From Rhodohalobacter sp. SW132 (GTDB taxonomy: Bacteria; Bacteroidota; Rhodothermia; Balneolales; Balneolaceae), in contig NZ_QUOK01000005.1 in the NCBI RefSeq assembly GCF_003390325.1, positions 1-64,000 of the forward strand: a DNA stretch of 64,000 nt, in the 5' to 3' direction. Below the pieces are notes generated by a model. The model saw only the letters and a list, made by a program, of their open reading frames with translations. It was not told the origin of the DNA and did not search any database. Shown in pieces: positions 3,167 to 13,556 of this stretch; position 1 is the stretch's first letter; every line of letters starts with the position of its first letter. The position numbers were made by a program, and so were the translations under genes.

Positions 3167-5638
3167 GCATTTGAATTAGCCGAACGGCTGCTTGATTATC
3201 CGGAATCAGATTGGGATCAACTGATTATGGATTGGTGCGGCAACGATACGGAACTCAGGAAAGAAGTCACAAAAATTGCCGGTCAAAATCGAAATGCCCG
3301 TGATTTTGTTGAAAACCTGCAGAAGAGAATCTATACTCTTACAAAATCATCTCTTGCTACGGAAGCCATCCTGCCTGAAGAGATAGCCGGTTACAAGGTC
3401 CTTCAAAAACTGGGAGCAGGCGGCAGCGCAACGGTTTACCTGATCGAGCTATTCAACGGCCAAAAAGCTGCCCTGAAATTGCTTCACGGTATTCTGACCG
3501 ACTCCTTTTCGAGCCACCGGTTTGAGGAGGAAAAGCGGATCCTTTCCACTCTTAATCATCCAAATATTTCCCGGTTAATTGAAGGAGGTTTCTCCGACAC
3601 AGGTGAACCGTATGTGGTTATGGAACTTGCCGATGGAATTCCTATCGACAGATACTGCAGCCTCAACCGGCTGACCATTGAAGAACGGGTTCAACTTTTT
3701 CAAACTGTTTGCAGAGCTGTGAATTATGCACACCAAAATCTTGTGGTACATCGGGATATCAAACCGGAACATATCTTGGTTTCGAAAGATGGCCAGATAA
3801 AACTGATCGATTTTGGTATTGCTAAATTACAGGAACCAACACCGGTTCAATCTGCCGTATTTAAAACACGTACAGGAATGCGGGTCATGACACCAGAATA
3901 TGCCAGTCCGGAGCAGGTGCGGGGTGAAGCAGTTTCTACCGCTTCAGATATCTATTCTCTCGGTGTTCTGCTTTATCTTCTGCTCACCGGTAAACATCCA
4001 TATCGTTTTCAAACAACTTCAATGCTTGAAGTGGAGAGGATTGTTTGCATACAGGAACCTCCCAAACCGAGTTCCATCGTCCAAAAATGTACGATTAATG
4101 AATTAGAAATCGCCGGGCATCATAATATCTCTCAAAAACAGCTTGGAAGACGACTTTCAGGAGATCTTGACCGAATCGTACAGAAAGCGATGAGAAAAGT
4201 ACCCTCTCAACGTTATGCTTCCGTCCTGGCGTTCTCTTATGATCTTGAAAATTATGTAAAGGGTAAACCGGTTATCGCACGGGCACCTACGATCCGTTAT
4301 CGGGCTCGCAAATATATCACCCGTCACAGGTGGGGACTTTCTGCTGTTGCACTTGTAATACTTACACTGAGTGCAGGTTTGATCGGTACTCTGTGGCAGT
4401 CTCATCAAACCAAAATGTTTGCTGAACGTGCAGAAACCCAGGCACAGATAGCGGGCCAGGTTACCGATTTTCTCGTCAACCTGTTTGAATCGGGTGATCC
4501 TGCTGTAACCCAGGGTGCAACTATTACGATCGACCAACTGCTTGAACGTGGTGTAGCTCAGGCGCTTGAATCGCCCGGGGAATCATCTGTGCAACTACAC
4601 CTATTGTCAGTTTTGGGCAGAGTATACAATGGTATGGGCATCCATTATAAAAGTGCGGAACTGTTTGAGGCTGCTTTGGAAAAAGCCATGAATCAGAACC
4701 CTCCGGATCTGCTTCTGATAGCGGATCTACAAAGCAGGCTCGGATACAATATGAGAATCATGGGAAATCTTCCCGCCGCCGATTCCCTATACCATCTGGC
4801 ACTCGATAACCGAAGATCTGTATTAGGTGAAGACGATCCGCTGAGCATTCGGAGCCTGGACGAATGGGCCGGAGTTCATGCTTATCGCACCCGCGACACC
4901 AACCTTGCCGACTCCCTCTTCCAGGATATCGTAACCAGGCGAAGAGCTTCTCTCGATCACTACGACAAAGATTTCGCCGAATCTCTAAATAACCTGGCCT
5001 ACATTAAAATGATGAAACGAGAGTATCACCTGGCCATCCAGAACTATGAAGAATCTGCTGAAATCTACCGGGAAGTATTGGGAGAAAATCATCCCGAACT
5101 GCTGCGAACCCAATCAAGTCTGGCGGTTGCGTACCATCGGGCAGGAAACTACGGACGCTCAGAACAGATGTTCCACACATTGATTGATGCACGCAAAAAT
5201 GTTTTGGGAGAAACCCACCCACAGGTTGCGGTTTCCTGGCATCATCTGGCTGAACTGTTAAAAGATACCGGGCGACTGGACCAGGCTGTCTCTGCGATTG
5301 AAAAAGCCGCATTCATCATGCAAAACCTGGAAGCTCCCTATCAATTTCATCCTGATATTCTTTTTTCTATGGCATTACTTTACGAGCAGACAGATCAAAC
5401 AGAACTTGCATCTGAAACCTATCGCAAAGCCGGGGAGAAATGTTCTGAAATACGAGGAGCCCAGTCTCCCGGTTGTCTTAGAATTTACCAGTCGATAGGT
5501 GAATATTTCCTTAGCCAGGAATTGAACTCTGAAGCCCGATTTTATCTGCAGCAGGCTTTCGATGGATATAGTCAACGGTTAGATCCGGAGAGTGAAACGT
5601 TACAAAACCTCACTGTGATGCTTGAAGCTGTTGAGTAA
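3152..5638 (+). CDS. Ser/Thr protein kinase with transmembrane segment and TPR sensor domain
   Basis: Predicted membrane receptor kinase. Residues about 80-370 form a protein kinase domain: glycine loop LGAGGSATVY (87-96), VAIK-type lysine K109 in AALKLL, catalytic loop HRDIKPEHIL (200-209), DFG at 220-222 and an activation-segment MTPEYASPEQ. The canonical catalytic-loop Asn is replaced by His207. A single hydrophobic helix (about 395-415, WGLSAVALVILTLSAGLIGT) separates the cytosolic kinase from about 400 residues of tetratricopeptide repeats, presumably extracytoplasmic. The start is TTG at 3152; a nearby upstream ATG (3139) runs at once into a stop. The gene follows the ECF sigma gene, so phosphorylation of sigma or of shared targets is plausible but not shown by the sequence. 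Confidence 0.88.
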   Translation: MNSDTAFELAERLLDYPESDWDQLIMDWCGNDTELRKEVTKIAGQNRNARDFVENLQKRIYTLTKSSLATEAILPEEIAGYKVLQKLGAGGSATVYLIELFNGQKAALKLLHGILTDSFSSHRFEEEKRILSTLNHPNISRLIEGGFSDTGEPYVVMELADGIPIDRYCSLNRLTIEERVQLFQTVCRAVNYAHQNLVVHRDIKPEHILVSKDGQIKLIDFGIAKLQEPTPVQSAVFKTRTGMRVMTPEYASPEQVRGEAVSTASDIYSLGVLLYLLLTGKHPYRFQTTSMLEVERIVCIQEPPKPSSIVQKCTINELEIAGHHNISQKQLGRRLSGDLDRIVQKAMRKVPSQRYASVLAFSYDLENYVKGKPVIARAPTIRYRARKYITRHRWGLSAVALVILTLSAGLIGTLWQSHQTKMFAERAETQAQIAGQVTDFLVNLFESGDPAVTQGATITIDQLLERGVAQALESPGESSVQLHLLSVLGRVYNGMGIHYKSAELFEAALEKAMNQNPPDLLLIADLQSRLGYNMRIMGNLPAADSLYHLALDNRRSVLGEDDPLSIRSLDEWAGVHAYRTRDTNLADSLFQDIVTRRRASLDHYDKDFAESLNNLAYIKMMKREYHLAIQNYEESAEIYREVLGENHPELLRTQSSLAVAYHRAGNYGRSEQMFHTLIDARKNVLGETHPQVAVSWHHLAELLKDTGRLDQAVSAIEKAAFIMQNLEAPYQFHPDILFSMALLYEQTDQTELASETYRKAGEKCSEIRGAQSPGCLRIYQSIGEYFLSQELNSEARFYLQQAFDGYSQRLDPESETLQNLTVMLEAVE

Positions 5639-7741: not shown

Positions 7742-8410
7742 TCACCCTGCCTCGGCTGCAAGCACATCATCCACGACGGGATCTCCGAGAATTTCCCGGA
7801 TTCTCTGAATGGCTTCATCCGGCTTATTTTCTCGAAACAGGTCCAGGGCATCTGAATCGATCAGCTGATACCAGAGGTTTTTCCGTGTTTCAAAATCATC
7901 ATAATGGCGGCTCATCGGGTCCCGAAGTTTATGCATGAGTGTCAAAAACGTATCGTACTCTTCCCCAAACTCCTTTTCAAACCGTTCACGCAACCGCACC
8001 GCAAGTGTTGGGGCTGCACCGCTGGTAGAGATCGACAGGGTAAGCGGTCCCCTTTTTACGATCGATCCGAATGAAAAATTAGCGTGTGGTATGTCATCCA
8101 TCACATTTACAAGAATGCCCCGCTCTTCCGCTTCATTGAAAATTCGTTTATTTTCATCGGCTTCAAATTGAGCCGCAATCACCAGGAATGCCCCTTCAAG
8201 GTCGCCCTCATGGTATCGGCGGTTGATCCATTCAAATCGTCCCTCATCAGCCCATGCCCGTAAGGTATCGCTCAATTTTGGGCTGATCACCGTTAACTTC
8301 GCGTGACGCTCCAGCAGCTCTCCGGCTTTTCTCTCCGCTTCGTGATCGCCTCCGATCAACACGGTTTTCTTTTTGTGAAGCTGGGTTAAATAGATTGGAT
8401 AGGTATGCAT
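7742..8410 (-). CDS. Precorrin-2 dehydrogenase / sirohydrochlorin ferrochelatase
   Basis: Met8p/SirC-type enzyme for the last steps of siroheme synthesis: NAD-dependent oxidation of precorrin-2, then possibly iron insertion. The N-terminal Rossmann fold begins MHTYPIYLTQLHKKKTVLIG with the dinucleotide-binding glycines, followed by the AERKAGELL helix and HAKLTVISP. The family block VMDDIPHANFSFGSIVKRG and the STSGAAPTLA loop are intact. At 222 residues it is the stand-alone form, not the CysG fusion; the methyltransferase partner is the separate gene at 9359-10177. It is the last gene of the minus-strand sulfur cluster, 109 bp after cysH. Siroheme made here serves the neighbouring sulfite reductase. 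Confidence 0.9.
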   Translation of the reverse strand: MHTYPIYLTQLHKKKTVLIGGDHEAERKAGELLERHAKLTVISPKLSDTLRAWADEGRFEWINRRYHEGDLEGAFLVIAAQFEADENKRIFNEAEERGILVNVMDDIPHANFSFGSIVKRGPLTLSISTSGAAPTLAVRLRERFEKEFGEEYDTFLTLMHKLRDPMSRHYDDFETRKNLWYQLIDSDALDLFRENKPDEAIQRIREILGDPVVDDVLAAEAG

Positions 8411-8519: not shown

Positions 8520-9341
8520 CTATTTGCTATGATGACCATTTTTAAAATTCTGCGTTGGCAGATGGATTCCGCATTCCGTTTTCGTATTATTTTTCCATCG
8601 GCCGTCTCGTTCGTGTTCATTGCCTTCAACCGGTTCCGTACAAGGGATGCAGCCAATCGTGGGGTAACCGCTATCGTGAAGCGGATTGTAGGGAAGATTG
8701 TGTTTGTTGATATATTCCCAAACATCATCATTACTCCAAGTGGCAAGCGGGTTGATTTTAATCACTTCATTCAGCGGATCCCACTCAATCACCTGAGTCT
8801 TTTTTCTCGTTACGGCCTGGTTACGCCGAACCCCGGTAATCCAGGCTCTTTTATCGGTTAGATAATTTTTTAAAGGCAGCACTTTCCTGATATGACAGCA
8901 TCTGTCCGGATCTGATTTCCAAAGCTCCCCGCCATAAGTTTCAGCCTGCTCATCCAATGTAAGATTTGTGCTCACCCTTTCAACTTCTATCCCGAACCGC
9001 GCCTCAATTTTATCCCGCAATTGATACGTTTCATTGAAAAGAAGATGTGTATCGAGATAAAAAATTCGAATCGGGATCTGCTGTGTTACCAGTCGGTGGA
9101 TCAAATACACACCCGATAGGCCAAAACCGGTTCCAAGGACAATCTCGCGCCCAAATTCCCGGTATCCCCAGCTGAGTAATTCATCCGGATGGCGATTTTC
9201 AAATCGACGGTTAAGATCCCGGATCAGATCCAGATCGATTTTCCGCTGACTGACTTCTTCACTTTTATTAATGAATGTGGATTCTGTATCAGGTTCAAAA
9301 AGCAGGTCTGAAGCAATCTGTATATCTGTTTCATTTTTCAT
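8520..9341 (-). CDS. cysH: APS/PAPS reductase with [4Fe-4S] motif (CysH family)
   Basis: Reduces activated sulfate (APS or PAPS) to sulfite with thioredoxin. The nucleotide-binding loop is at GTGFGLSGVYL (residues 71-81). The paired cysteines CC (148-149) and CIPC (231-234) are the four ligands of the [4Fe-4S] cluster of the APS-reductase type. The catalytic ECGIH cysteine is at 257. This pattern suggests APS rather than PAPS as substrate, a family-level inference. The product feeds the sulfite reductase encoded upstream in the same cluster. The cobA stop and cysH start are 17 bp apart. No ATP sulfurylase (CysDN or Sat) is in the window, so APS must be made from genes elsewhere. Confidence 0.92.
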   Translation of the reverse strand: MKNETDIQIASDLLFEPDTESTFINKSEEVSQRKIDLDLIRDLNRRFENRHPDELLSWGYREFGREIVLGTGFGLSGVYLIHRLVTQQIPIRIFYLDTHLLFNETYQLRDKIEARFGIEVERVSTNLTLDEQAETYGGELWKSDPDRCCHIRKVLPLKNYLTDKRAWITGVRRNQAVTRKKTQVIEWDPLNEVIKINPLATWSNDDVWEYINKHNLPYNPLHDSGYPTIGCIPCTEPVEGNEHERDGRWKNNTKTECGIHLPTQNFKNGHHSK

Positions 9342-9358: not shown

Positions 9359-10177
9359 TTAGCCGGTTACTGTTTTTCGTTGTTCAATCTGAAGATGATT
9401 TTTATTCTCATAAGGCTCCTTAAACCATGCAAAATCGTGACCGAGTGCTGCCAGTTTTCCAATCACAATGGTGGCCGGCGGTGAAAGCTCAGCCGCTTTA
9501 TCTACGATTGTGTCCAGTGTGCCGATTACTGTTCGCTGGCAATCGTAAGTCGCTTTTTCTATTATAGCAACCGGTGTTTCAGGAGATCTTCCATAGAGAT
9601 ACAGTTTGCTGATAATGGCTGGTAAATTTTTCATTCCCATTAAAATGACCAGGGTGTCAGAATGGGCAATATTCTCCCAGTTTTCGAACAACTCATCTTT
9701 ATTTTTTGTGTAGCCTGTAACCACAGTAAACGATCTCGCTTGTCCCCGGTGTGTAAGCGGAATACCAGCATATGCAGGAGCGGCAATTGCGCTGCTGATT
9801 CCGGGTACAATTTCGAAATGAATTCCTTCTTTGGCCAGGGCCTCGCACTCCTCCCCTCCGCGGCCAAAAACAAAAGAGTCGCCTCCTTTCAGTCTCACTA
9901 CCGTTTTTCCCTCTTTTGCTTTCGCAACCAAAATCCGGCTGATCTGCTCTTGCGAAACTGACCGCTTGTCAGGTCGTTTACCTACATAAATTCTTTCAGA
10001 ATCTTTCGGTGCATTCGACAGAAGTTCAGGGTTTGCCAGCCGATCATAAACCAGAACCTCCGCTTTTTTGATGGTATTCAAGCCGCGAACGGTAATCAAA
10101 TCGGGATCCCCCGGGCCAGCTCCCACAAGAAATACTTTACCTTTCGGTTGATAAGATGTTCTGTTAAGTATACTCAT
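9359..10177 (-). CDS. cobA: Uroporphyrinogen-III C-methyltransferase (SUMT)
   Basis: SAM-dependent enzyme that methylates uroporphyrinogen III at C2 and C7 to give precorrin-2, the entry point to siroheme. Motifs present are VFLVGAGPGDPDLITVRG, VLVYDRL, VVRLKGGDSFVFGRGGEE, EIVPGISSAIAAPAYAGIPLTHR and TLVILMGMKNL, spanning the whole family core. The start codon overlaps the sulfite reductase stop in an ATGA arrangement, indicating translational coupling. With the precorrin-2 dehydrogenase three genes on, it supplies the siroheme cofactor of the sulfite reductase, so cofactor and apoenzyme are made from one operon. Confidence 0.95.
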   Translation of the reverse strand: MSILNRTSYQPKGKVFLVGAGPGDPDLITVRGLNTIKKAEVLVYDRLANPELLSNAPKDSERIYVGKRPDKRSVSQEQISRILVAKAKEGKTVVRLKGGDSFVFGRGGEECEALAKEGIHFEIVPGISSAIAAPAYAGIPLTHRGQARSFTVVTGYTKNKDELFENWENIAHSDTLVILMGMKNLPAIISKLYLYGRSPETPVAIIEKATYDCQRTVIGTLDTIVDKAAELSPPATIVIGKLAALGHDFAWFKEPYENKNHLQIEQRKTVTG

Positions 10178-11841
10178 TCTGCCACCTCTGCTTCTTCAAG
10201 TAATCCTGTTCGTTCATAAAAATCGCCAAAAGATTCTCCTTCATTCCGGTTTTCACTATAGCGGCGCAGCAACGGGGTTACTTCACTGATCAGATCTTCG
10301 AGCGGCACCAGTTCTTTATACAAGCTGTTCAGACGGGTTCCAGACGGATCACCACCAATAAATACTGAATATTTATTCAGCGATTGCCCCACAAAACCGA
10401 TATCCGCCACGTATGGACGGGCACAGCCGTTCGGGCAGCCGGTCATTCGCACCGATAAATTTTCGTCTTCAAGACCCAGATCGTGTATCACGGATTCCAG
10501 GTCACGAATCACATCCGGAAACACCCGTTCCGATTCGGTAATCGCCAGCCCGCAGGTTGGCAGCGCCGGGCATGCCATGGAGAGTTTGAGCAGATTTGAA
10601 TACTCTTCGCCCCATACAATTCCATGTTCACGAAGTAACTTATCAACACCAGCTTTATCCTTTTCAGCGATGTTCGTGAGCAGCAGGTTGTGATTGGGAG
10701 TGAAACGGACTTCCGGCTGAAATTTCTCGATCGTCTTGCGAAGTCCCGTTTTAAGCTGACGATCTTCATCATCCTTAATCCTGCCGTTTTCGATGGAAAG
10801 TCCTAAAAACCACTTTCCGTCCGATTGCTGATGCCAGCCTAAGTAGAGATTCAGTTCAAATTTTGGCATATCGCGAAACGGTTCAAGTGAATAACCCAGA
10901 CGTTCTTCCAGTTCGGCTTTGAATTTTTCAATCCCCCAATTATGGATCAGGTATTTCATGCGAGCCTGTTTGCGATTTTTCCGATCTCCATTATCTCTCT
11001 GAATTGCAATGATTTCCTTCACCACCTCGCTCACTTTCTCCGCCGGAATATATCCGATATGATCACCCAGTCGCGGAAACGTACTCTCTTTTTTATGGTG
11101 CATTCCCATTCCGCCGCCGACCACTACATTAAACCCTTCAATCGTATTACTCTCATCAAAAAATGCCACCAGTCCGATATCCTGAGTATACAGATCTACA
11201 CTATTGTCACCCTGCAGTGCAACAGCGATTTTGAATTTTCGGGGCAGGTAATCTTTCCCATAAAGCGGTTCTCCATTTTTTACCTCTTCCTCACCGGAGT
11301 AGACCTTCTCTCCATCAAGAAAAATTTCGTGGTAGGCGTTGGTTGCCGGGAGCAGTTCATCTGATAATCGGTCTGCAAAGGCCTGGGCCTGGGATTGACG
11401 GCCATCGATATCCGGCACCGGGGTAGCCATTACGTTTCGCACAATATCCCCGCACGCACCAACGGTTGTGATCATTGCCCGGTTTAAATCCTGAAGTGTG
11501 GCTTTCAGTTCTTTTTTGATGACTCCGTAGAGCTGGAACGTCTGCCGTGTAGTGGCGCGAATTGTGCCATCACCATACTGATCAACAATATCATCAATCG
11601 CAAGGTACTGCCCGGCTGTGATTCGTCCGCCCGGAATCCGACCACGGATCATAAACATCCAGTGTTTGTCCCTCCCTTTTCTGAGGTCGCGGTCATCCTG
11701 TTGATACGAGCCGTGAAATTTTAATATCTGGTAGGCTTCCTTGCTGATTGACGGTTCATCGTTTTCCATCTCTTCAGCAAGAGGGCCGCGTAAATAGTTA
11801 CTGTTCTCTTTTATAACTTCAACTTTGCTCTTTTTTCTCAT
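10174..11841 (-). CDS. cysI: Assimilatory sulfite reductase, siroheme/[4Fe-4S] subunit (CysI-type)
   Basis: Six-electron reduction of sulfite to sulfide. The N terminus has the CysI signature SNYLRGPLAEEM and IKFHGSYQQDDRDLR-like text. The siroheme-iron-sulfur ligands are in CPALPTC (Cys424 and Cys430) and CPNGC (Cys469 and Cys473), spaced as in the family. At 555 residues it is complete. No flavoprotein subunit (CysJ) is adjacent, so electrons may come from ferredoxin or a distant reductase. The ATG is only 14 bases after the T run of a strong hairpin (11856-11913). No Shine-Dalgarno sequence is close, since the GGAGG in that hairpin is 21 bases away. Expression therefore probably depends on read-through of the upstream transcript. 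Confidence 0.93.
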   Translation of the reverse strand: MRKKSKVEVIKENSNYLRGPLAEEMENDEPSISKEAYQILKFHGSYQQDDRDLRKGRDKHWMFMIRGRIPGGRITAGQYLAIDDIVDQYGDGTIRATTRQTFQLYGVIKKELKATLQDLNRAMITTVGACGDIVRNVMATPVPDIDGRQSQAQAFADRLSDELLPATNAYHEIFLDGEKVYSGEEEVKNGEPLYGKDYLPRKFKIAVALQGDNSVDLYTQDIGLVAFFDESNTIEGFNVVVGGGMGMHHKKESTFPRLGDHIGYIPAEKVSEVVKEIIAIQRDNGDRKNRKQARMKYLIHNWGIEKFKAELEERLGYSLEPFRDMPKFELNLYLGWHQQSDGKWFLGLSIENGRIKDDEDRQLKTGLRKTIEKFQPEVRFTPNHNLLLTNIAEKDKAGVDKLLREHGIVWGEEYSNLLKLSMACPALPTCGLAITESERVFPDVIRDLESVIHDLGLEDENLSVRMTGCPNGCARPYVADIGFVGQSLNKYSVFIGGDPSGTRLNSLYKELVPLEDLISEVTPLLRRYSENRNEGESFGDFYERTGLLEEAEVAE

Positions 11842-11934: not shown

Positions 11935-12777
11935 TTATCGTTCGATAGGTGCATCAATTAGGTTTCCCCATTCCGTCCATGAGCCATCGTAATTCCGAAC
12001 ATTGGGGAATTCCAGCAGTTCATTCAATACAAACCAGGAGTGTGCCGAACGCTCCCCGATTCTGCAATAGGCGATAATATCTTTATCAGGGGTAATTCCT
12101 TCTTCTTCATACAAGGATTTGAGTTCCTCTTTGGATTTGAAAGTCCCGTCTTCGTTCACAGCTTTCGACCACGGAATATTACTTGCTCCCGGGATATGAC
12201 CGGCTCGCTGAGACAACTCATTGAGACCCTCAGGTGCCAGGATTTTCCCGCTAAACTCATCCGGAGAACGAACGTCCACCAGGCCGTGTTTATCGCTGCC
12301 AAGTGTCTGGGCAACATCATCCCGAAACGCCCTGTATTCCTCCCTTACATTTTCAATCGTATAATCCGCGGGATCAACTTCGGTGGTTTTTGTGGTTAAC
12401 TCCCGGTTTTCAGCTTCCCACTTTTTGCGGCCGCCATCCAGAATTCGGACATCCTCATGGCCGTAATATTTCAGGAGCCAGTAGGCCCATGCGGCAAACC
12501 AGTTGTTGTTATCACCATACAGAATGATGGTGGTATCGTTGCTGATTCCGGATTTCGAAAGCAGGTTTTCGAAATCTTCTTTTGAGGCGATGGTGCGCCG
12601 AAGCTGATCCTGCAGTTCTGTTTTCCAGTTCCAGCCAATGGCTCCGGGAATGTGGCCCGAGTCGTAGGATCGGGTGTTCACATCAACTTCTACAAACCGG
12701 ACTCCTTCGTCGGTCAGATGATTGGCGGCCCAGTCGGTCGATACCAGTGTTTTTTCTTGTGTGAGTGTTGCAGACAT
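11935..12777 (-). CDS. Thiosulfate sulfurtransferase, two-domain rhodanese
   Basis: Tandem rhodanese: an inactive N-terminal domain (residues about 10-140, with VRFVEVDVNTRSYDSGHIPG) and a catalytic C-terminal domain (LVDVRSPDEF, then the active loop CRIGERS with Cys238). The CRIGERS loop is the thiosulfate type rather than the mercaptopyruvate type, so it probably transfers sulfane sulfur from thiosulfate to cyanide or another thiol acceptor. It is the first gene after the Met/Cys-rich leader and its terminator, which places it under the same control as the assimilation genes. Its role there may be to use or handle thiosulfate as a sulfur source, which is inference. Confidence 0.92.
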   Translation of the reverse strand: MSATLTQEKTLVSTDWAANHLTDEGVRFVEVDVNTRSYDSGHIPGAIGWNWKTELQDQLRRTIASKEDFENLLSKSGISNDTTIILYGDNNNWFAAWAYWLLKYYGHEDVRILDGGRKKWEAENRELTTKTTEVDPADYTIENVREEYRAFRDDVAQTLGSDKHGLVDVRSPDEFSGKILAPEGLNELSQRAGHIPGASNIPWSKAVNEDGTFKSKEELKSLYEEEGITPDKDIIAYCRIGERSAHSWFVLNELLEFPNVRNYDGSWTEWGNLIDAPIER

Positions 12778-12865
12778 AATAAAAGTGCTTTGTGTTACGG
12801 TTTGCGGTTTAGGATTAATTCACAAAGCCAGCGTCAGCAGAGATAGAAGAGCAAAATTTAAACAT

Positions 12866-12900
12866 AAAAAAAGCCCGCTATCTATGCCGGATAGCGGGCT
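12866..12900 (-). terminator. Attenuator terminator upstream of the sulfur operon
   Basis: Perfect 11-bp stem (AGCCCGCTATC / GATAGCGGGCT) with a 7-base loop, followed on the minus strand by six T (12871-12866). It stands about 90 bp ahead of the sulfurtransferase start, in the 5' leader, not after a gene. Its 5' arm is also complementary to the end of the leader ORF (12937-12947), so it has a built-in competing antiterminator. A T tract also follows on the plus strand, but no plus-strand gene precedes it. Confidence 0.85.
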
Positions 12901-12929
12901 TTTTGAAAAGTTATTTATAAATCAACCAG

Positions 12930-12995
12930 TCATTTTAACCCGCTATCGTTATGCATGCACATACAGCACATCATAGCCATCGGGCTACACATCAT
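12930..12995 (-). CDS. Met/Cys-rich leader peptide of the sulfur operon
   Basis: A 21-codon ORF on the minus strand: ATG ATG TGT AGC CCG ATG GCT ATG ATG TGC TGT ATG TGC ATG, then seven more codons and TGA. The peptide begins MMCSPMAMMCCMCM: seven Met and four Cys among the first 14 residues. No Shine-Dalgarno sequence is evident, as for many genes here. Codons 17-20 (GAT AGC GGG TT) pair with the 5' arm of the terminator at 12866-12900. Stalling at Met/Cys codons should leave that segment free and prevent termination, while efficient translation to the stop should cover it. The ORF sits directly upstream of the sulfur-assimilation genes. Identification as an attenuator rests on composition, position and base pairing; no similar described leader comes to mind for this phylum. 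Confidence 0.75.
   Translation of the reverse strand: MMCSPMAMMCCMCMHNDSGLK
12937..12947 (-). promoter_or_regulatory. Antiterminator strand overlapping the leader ORF end
   Basis: On the minus strand GATAGCGGGTT. It can pair with AGCCCGCTATC (12900-12890): nine Watson-Crick pairs, one G-U and one A-U. This pairing is mutually exclusive with the terminator stem. The same nine bases GATAGCGGG recur as the 3' arm of the terminator, the classic duplicated-strand design of an attenuator. Confidence 0.75.
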
Positions 12996-13002
12996 AACGA
13001 TA
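12944..13002 (-). promoter_or_regulatory. Leader hairpin enclosing the leader ORF start
   Basis: Perfect 10-bp inverted repeat (plus-strand TATCGTTATG at 12944-12953 and CATAACGATA at 12993-13002), with a small internal stem TAGCC/GGCTA at 12974-12987. On the transcript the 5' arm contains the leader ATG, and the 3' arm overlaps the antiterminator strand by four bases. In the absence of translation it would compete with antitermination and favour the terminator. Confidence 0.65.
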
Positions 13003-13556
13003 TTCAGATTTAAAACTTGGCTGTTCATATTTTGAAAATGTTTACTTGGTTTCTATCACTGCAAGCAGATTAATAACAATTAACTTATATATCAAAATTG
13101 ATTGAAATTTAAATTTCCCGATGACTTCAAACTATCATATTTGGATAATGCAAACTAAAAAAGCGCTTTTATTTGTTTAAAATTTCGCTTATAAATGCTC
13201 ATTTGAAGATTTCTTCTGAAAATAAATTAAGAAAATCTTCAAATACTGTGCGTATTCTTATTAATCGACATCGTTTTCAAACATTGATGCCATACGTTCG
13301 AATAGAAACTGAAACCAAAAATTCCGCGGTTTATTTATCGATTGACATAAGGGTGTCAAAACTGCGAAGTACTTTTCCAATCGATCCTTTTTCAAACGTA
13401 TAAAATTCCAAAACCAGTTTTTTCAAATTATATCATCCACCAACCCTGCTGGCGTGTCATAGGTTTTCAGTTTTACAGTCATCCATAAATCACCTGGTGA
13501 TTTCTCAATATGTTATTATTGACACGACACTTCATCCTTCAGAATATCAAAATTCC
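13003..13556. other. 554-bp AT-rich intergenic region
   Basis: It should hold the promoter for the minus-strand sulfur operon and the plus-strand AlkC-like gene, but I cannot point to a convincing one. The one clear structure is a hairpin at 13202-13243 (TTTGAAGATTTCTT against AAGAAAATCTTCAAA, one bulge) without a T tract. A 76-codon frame at 13173-13403 has no protein-like composition and I do not call it. Confidence 0.5.

Follow-up and report, generated by a model that had tools for sequence, protein, structure and literature searches.

Ribosome-mediated transcription attenuation is a textbook mechanism class. In the trp, his, thr, leu and ilv leaders of proteobacteria, a short open reading frame (ORF) is enriched in codons for the amino acid that the operon makes, helices 1:2, 2:3 and 3:4 exclude one another, and an intrinsic terminator precedes the first gene. 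To our knowledge, little has been described of the control of sulfur assimilation in Balneolota and most Bacteroidota. Elsewhere, the uORFC-8-2 motif found 5′ of cysS in Rhodobacterales is a Cys-codon attenuator (PMC8632094), in which the Cys codons of the upstream ORF lie in the first stem, an intrinsic terminator is present, and stalling at low Cys-tRNA has been proposed. Leader ORFs with runs of Cys codons also precede cys operons of mycobacteria and other actinobacteria (PMC1262725; Canestrari et al. 2020, cited in PMC13236596), and the title of Canestrari et al. calls these ORFs leaderless. In addition, a Flavobacterium study describes leader-peptide attenuators for amino-acid operons, and its section on them does not name sulfur genes.

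The locus compared here lies in a window of 64,000 nucleotides (the whole stretch of DNA that was analysed) from Rhodohalobacter sp. SW132. Judged from its sequence, the leader is very probably a ribosome-mediated transcription attenuator of the trp/his layout, in which Met and Cys codons together would serve as the sensor. Sulfur uptake and assimilation would thereby probably be turned on when protein synthesis lacks Met or Cys. The host is a marine bacterium. The leader comprises the following features, in the order of transcription.

13067 to 13095, minus strand: promoter-like site, with a -35 element TTGATA (13095-13090), a 17-nt spacer and a -10 element TAATCT (13072-13067)
12930 to 13028, minus strand: leader ORF of 32 codons plus stop, MNSQVLNLNIVMMCSPMAMMCCMCMHNDSGLK, supported by homologous ORFs in relatives
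12993 to 13010, minus strand: region 1, 5′ arm of the sequestering hairpin 1:2, from folds and the partner-swap test
12954 to 12995, minus strand: putative regulatory Met/Cys codons 12-25 of the leader ORF, 11 of 14 being Met or Cys
12937 to 12953, minus strand: region 2, 3′ arm of hairpin 1:2, which includes the antiterminator arm GATAGCGGG (12947-12939)
12890 to 12899, minus strand: region 3, GCCCGCTATC, partner of region 2 (antiterminator) or region 4 (terminator)
12873 to 12882, minus strand: region 4, GATAGCGGGC, 3′ arm of the terminator
12861 to 12904, minus strand: predicted intrinsic terminator, stem 12904-12868 plus U-rich tail, hairpin -22.9 kcal/mol

The initial annotation had placed a 21-codon Met/Cys-rich ORF here. 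Its count of 11 Met or Cys in 14 codons holds, but its extent does not, as it represents the 3′ two thirds of a 32-codon ORF that begins with the ATG at 13028 and ends with the stop codon at 12932-12930. The leader ORFs of relatives have this same start, mostly M-N/K-x-Q. Similarly, the element that had been delimited as 13002-12866 extends instead from ~13095 (promoter) to 12861. The other two frames of the same stretch contain 4 and 0 Met or Cys codons, and in 100 dinucleotide-shuffled versions of the leader the count per 14 codons averaged 3.6 and never exceeded 7. Even 7 of 14 was met by a single short ORF besides the Gracilimonas homologue in 1.77 Mb of strand-bases from other loci. The proposed folding check gave a clear result as well, with the leader folding at -63.2 kcal/mol and its shuffled versions at -38.5 on average (z -6.5; 0/200 shuffles as low). 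On the basis of these shuffle, other-DNA and fold controls, the Met/Cys run is not a product of chance.

As in trp-type attenuators, an intrinsic terminator separates the leader ORF from the first structural gene, and it ends 90 nt 5′ of the operon. The terminator that had been noted from the sequence was found, its 11-bp stem with T tail becoming 15 bp if flanking A-T pairs are counted. It is also correct that GATAGCGGG in the last codons of the ORF is complementary to the 5′ arm of this terminator, with the same bases forming its 3′ arm, and the antiterminator helix 2:3 is exclusive with the terminator. A 10-bp hairpin had been proposed to mask the start codon, but the start at 13028 lies upstream of this hairpin, which is inside the ORF. 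There it surrounds the Met/Cys codons and keeps the antiterminator arm paired, a role like that of hairpin 1:2 of trp. The partner-swap test and footprint model described below indicate that the codons are placed such that a stalled ribosome could open helix 1:2.

The expected sulfurtransferase, sulfite reductase, siroheme and APS reductase genes downstream were confirmed by NCBIfam and Pfam matches.

11935 to 12777, minus strand: first operon gene, rhodanese/mercaptopyruvate-sulfurtransferase-like, 280 aa (NCBIfam/Pfam)
10174 to 11841, minus strand: assimilatory sulfite reductase hemoprotein, CysI-like (NF010029, 781 bits, cut-off 457)
9359 to 10177, minus strand: uroporphyrinogen-III C-methyltransferase, CobA/SUMT (NF004790)
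8520 to 9341, minus strand: APS/PAPS reductase, CysH (NF002537)
7742 to 8410, minus strand: siroheme synthase N-terminal domain, precorrin-2 dehydrogenase (TIGR01470)

Compared with the proteobacterial amino-acid leaders, the SW132 leader is distinct in mixing Met and Cys codons, in its target (assimilatory sulfate reduction) and in its host, a member of the Balneolota. The motif uORFC-8-2 (PMC8632094), which occurs in Alphaproteobacteria, has a tandem pair of Cys codons but no run of Met, and its target is the gene for cysteinyl-tRNA synthetase. Membership of the SW132 leader in that class was rejected, since its first gene encodes a rhodanese, not cysS, and its codons are mixed Met/Cys rather than tandem Cys near 14-15. 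The actinobacterial ORFs contain Cys only, lack a conserved intrinsic terminator and are described as acting translationally or possibly through Rho. An assignment to the mycobacterial poly-Cys type was likewise rejected, because the SW132 leader has a terminator and 38 nt separate its predicted -10 element from the ATG.

In the mechanism that we propose, transcription would start ~30 nt 5′ of the leader ORF. In the absence of a ribosome, region 1 would pair with region 2, region 3 would be free for region 4, and termination would occur before the operon. When Met-tRNA and Cys-tRNA are plentiful, the ribosome would reach the stop codon and cover region 2, and the terminator would form. A shortage of charged tRNA-Cys or tRNA-Met would stall the ribosome at codons 12-23, where it would occlude region 1; the free region 2 would then pair with newly made region 3, which would preclude the terminator and let RNA polymerase continue into the operon. 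We infer that the ORF is translated, that ribosomes stall on it, that charged tRNAs are the signal, and that termination and read-through respond in this way in vivo. Folds with the ribosome masked, which are model calculations using an E. coli-like footprint, are consistent with this scheme. With a stall at codons 12-23, all nine antiterminator-arm bases are predicted to be free, and helix 2:3 would be in the minimum-energy fold (-20.9 to -28.8 kcal/mol) before region 4 is made. With a ribosome at the stop codon, no base of this arm would be free and the terminator alone would be possible, and a stall at codons 24-25 would cover part of region 2. For stalls at codons 12-23, however, the terminator is predicted to beat the antiterminator by ~2.5-6 kcal/mol after synthesis of region 4. 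Because the completed terminator is more stable, antitermination would need kinetic priority of helix 2:3. The trp switch is generally held to depend on timing.

The search for similar leaders covered 147 related genomes, many of them draft or metagenome assemblies, in which sulfite reductase was found in 19 Balneolaceae (SW132 included), four members of family f3 and one of family f14; SW132 belongs to family f1 (Balneolaceae), as does genome G050. All 19 of the sampled Balneolaceae with sulfite reductase carry a Met/Cys-rich leader ORF and terminator 5′ of the operon. In G060 and G151 the leader is also present before the rhodanese gene, and in G079 it lies near sulfite reductase with just the end of the rhodanese left. 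The same arrangement precedes sulfite reductase at 4/4 loci of f3, whose leaders were recovered by covariance model R1 as well, and at the one f14 locus. None of the rhodanese relatives retrieved from other phyla has a comparable leader. An unregulated terminator accompanied by a chance ORF might be entertained on the grounds that strong GCCC-stem intrinsic terminators are common in these genomes and that most weak model matches in the SW132 genome have no cognate leader. Given the conservation in 19/19 genomes of the family, the recurrence in other families and before other targets, and the chance controls, we consider that explanation almost negligible.

Comparison of the 21 leaders in alignment A1 supports the three helices of the attenuator. 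In the antiterminator helix 2:3, 88.9% of cells are paired and 8/9 pairs are formed in at least 20 of the 21 sequences. Pairs changed on both sides number three in helix 2:3 and four in helix 3:4, and both helices collapse when slid by 1-3 columns and have more paired cells and higher covariation scores than shuffles. In a test independent of column-by-column pairing, the partner of each region was swapped for its counterparts in all other genomes. Pairing with the own partner was stronger in helix 1:2 (-20.9 versus -15.6 kcal/mol swapped, 0/5000 permutations as good among the 21 leaders), helix 2:3 (-16.4 versus -15.2, 1/5000) and helix 3:4 (-24.9 versus -22.7, 0/5000), although both the covariation and the swap controls ignore kinship of the sequences. 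Thus, the alignment of relatives that the initial annotation had called for bears out its expectations, with conserved Met/Cys codons, a leader in 19/19 genomes and own-partner preference in all three helices.

Region 2 is of the GGTAGTGG type in most relatives and GATAGCGG in SW132, and region 3 changes to match. In leaders L006, L009, L011 and L012, region 2 reads as VV, not GSG, and since the frame differs, it is the RNA rather than the peptide that is conserved there. Region 2 is kept as RNA in these two frames while its distance from the ATG takes 10 values, and the Met/Cys codons remain in the frame of the start codon as region 2 shifts frame. Across the 21 leaders, Met/Cys codons per 14 average 9.7 in the ATG frame versus 3.6 and 0.8 in the others, and in none of them did any of 100 shuffles reach the leader's own in-frame count; the leader ORFs were partly picked for Met/Cys content, yet every locus of the family with the operon had one. 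Substitutions among close relatives (87/85/106 by codon position) are weakly third-position biased, and it is therefore frame and codon content, not a dN/dS-type signal, that support coding. The leader ORF thus has a cluster of codons for operon-related amino acids that is kept in relatives.

These observations bear on whether the leader might be an RNA-only element, such as a riboswitch or protein-binding RNA, with an incidental ORF. Its extensive structure (z = -6.5) is what such an element would have. However, the frame-locked Met/Cys codons and the occurrence of region 2 in two frames argue against it, no Rfam family reached gathering score in a scan of the SW132 leader and related loci, and the trp leader of SW132 shares this layout but uses Trp codons. 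We regard an RNA-only element as extremely unlikely. Matches to Thr_leader, Trp_leader, STnc230 and other Rfam models were weak, far below cut-off, and identity as a SAM riboswitch, T-box or other Rfam class was rejected because no covariance model matched the leader at gathering score.

A promoter-like site accompanies most of these leaders. The pattern TTGA[CT][AT]-N16-18-TANNNT occurs in 19/21, with a spacer of 17 in 18 of those, versus a shuffle mean of 0.58 (maximum 4), a lenient control because the pattern was defined post hoc from the sequences. The site ends mostly 38-53 nt 5′ of the ATG. A generic promoter scan of the leader region did not report the 13067 to 13095 site. The Bacteroidetes-type promoter TTTG-N18-22-TANNTTTG was considered and rejected, as it is absent 5′ of all 21 leaders, where TTGAca-17-TAnnnT is conserved instead. 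As a separate observation, the promoter-like sites at these 21 Balneolales loci are of the TTGACA-17-TATAAT type, unlike the Bacteroidetes TTTG/TANNTTTG type.

Leaders of this kind are not confined to sulfite reductase operons. A codon pattern, ATGTGYATGTGYATG, was matched 43 times in 394 genomes, where its reversed control was matched 7 times, and several of these matches were discarded as plain coding sequence or unrelated ORFs. Matches to model R1, which was built from the 3′ part of the leader and gives rough E-values, mostly looked like ordinary terminators when found phylum-wide outside the class; among the loci inspected, just G259 and G362 had a Met/Cys or Cys ORF. Similar leaders precede genes for an SLC13/CitMHS-type (sulfate) permease with CysD, SUMT-CysH (cobA-cysH), CysH alone, SfnG, SusC-like receptors, MetY and, in a Cys-only form, CysK. 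For example, a Met/Cys leader lies before dimethylsulfone monooxygenase SfnG and FMN reductase at L196 (G122, f3), and a Cys-rich leader, MANCCCCCKTC, with terminator lies before cysteine synthase CysK at L233 (G362, f45). Three Met/Cys leaders were found in the SW132 genome, located before the sulfite reductase operon, a SusC-like receptor gene and CoA-binding protein-MetY genes. The second of these precedes a SusC-like TonB receptor gene at G000:C9:214915-215049, minus strand (L153, L307), with an S-adenosylhomocysteinase gene nearby, and SusC-like receptors at L191, L195, L197, L204 and L207 are also preceded by a Met/Cys leader, which suggests uptake of a sulfur-containing nutrient.

The codon mix follows the downstream gene, with Met and Cys before sulfate assimilation genes (averages of 5.5 Met and 5.8 Cys before the cys operon), Met-rich leaders with few Cys before metY in families f27 and f33, Cys only before cysK, and Trp rather than Met/Cys before trpE. 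The trpE leader of SW132 (NISWWWPN; G000:C2:505166-505290, minus strand; L223, L309) has the same antiterminator/terminator style, is common to many Balneolaceae and lends itself as a positive control for this layout. This variation bears on how many amino acids are read. That a single amino acid, most likely Cys, is sensed, with Met codons as passengers or serving the fold, is a reading that overlaps with the preferred one and that we consider unlikely but worth weighing. The nearest published sulfur-gene attenuators use Cys codons alone (PMC8632094, PMC1262725), and the leader hairpins contain base-paired AUG and UGU-type codons, some of which could serve structure. Against Cys-only sensing stand the Met-rich metY leaders of other families, the Cys-only cysK leader and the nearly even mix before the cys operon. 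Because codon content differs with the downstream gene, both Met and Cys appear to be selected.

Alternatively, codon-dependent stalling might play no part, and the nascent peptide itself could be the sensor, as an arrest peptide binding a metal, thiol or sulfide. Met/Cys-rich peptides are generally able to bind soft metals and thiols. However, order and length vary (MMCCMCM, CCCMCMCMMC, MCMCCC) while total Met/Cys content is kept, whereas a fixed motif is usual in arrest peptides, and the identified targets are sulfur and Met/Cys genes, all of which makes a peptide sensor quite improbable relative to codon-dependent stalling.

Before metY, the leader occurs together with a known riboswitch. 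All 10 of the Balneolaceae metY-type loci scanned have a Met/Cys leader and terminator followed by a SAM-I aptamer (RF00162, 63-84 bits), and a second terminator lies 3′ of the aptamer in the two loci inspected at full length.

G000:C2, ~250.3 kb, minus strand: Met/Cys leader plus SAM-I before CoA-binding protein-MetY genes (L271, leader near 4100 on the L271 minus strand)
L260, L262 and L264-L270: other loci with the leader plus SAM-I tandem

The SAM-I (S-box) riboswitch resembles the leader in controlling Met and sulfur genes by premature termination, but it senses SAM, not charged tRNA, and is absent from the leader of the sulfite reductase operon. The tandem at metY is apparently a two-input series switch and would constitute a natural two-input RNA logic element. 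In family f27, two tandem Met/Cys-rich leader ORFs precede metY in five genomes (L277-L280, L283), some with weaker Met/Cys content.

It seems likely that in Balneolota, and partly in other Bacteroidota, a whole sulfur regulon is under Met/Cys leader attenuators, with the metY leader and SAM-I in series requiring both low charged tRNA and low SAM. In this reading, the attenuators would control uptake across the outer membrane, the sulfate permease, sulfate activation, the reduction of sulfate and sulfite, the use of dimethylsulfone, and the synthesis of homocysteine. If true, a regulon would be wired by charged-tRNA sensing, one leader would read two amino acids, and leader codon content could serve to assign functions to genes not yet characterised, for instance those for SusC-like receptors. 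Leaders that mix Met and Cys codons, that govern a whole sulfur regulon or that stand in tandem with a SAM riboswitch provisionally appear to be undescribed, in that the open-licence full-text literature, which leaves most subscription papers outside, contained no mixed Met/Cys leader, Balneolota case or leader-SAM riboswitch tandem.

Two further observations concern neighbouring sequences. At Salinibacter-like loci of family f12 (L026-L028), which were left out of the leader counts, a Cys-rich ORF ending in CLCSCLCGMSASCRG or similar lies ~340-410 nt 5′ of the rhodanese gene and is followed by a short, weak terminator-like stem, and is possibly a Cys leader. Between the terminator and the rhodanese start (12778-12860 of the window, minus strand), SW132 and its relatives share a conserved block, CTG..TCAG..GGCTTTGTGA, ~30 nt, ACACAAAGC, the last of which adjoins the rhodanese start codon. 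RNAalifold gave no consensus structure for this post-terminator region, conserved by eye, and GCTTTGTG and CACAAAGC within the block are complementary.
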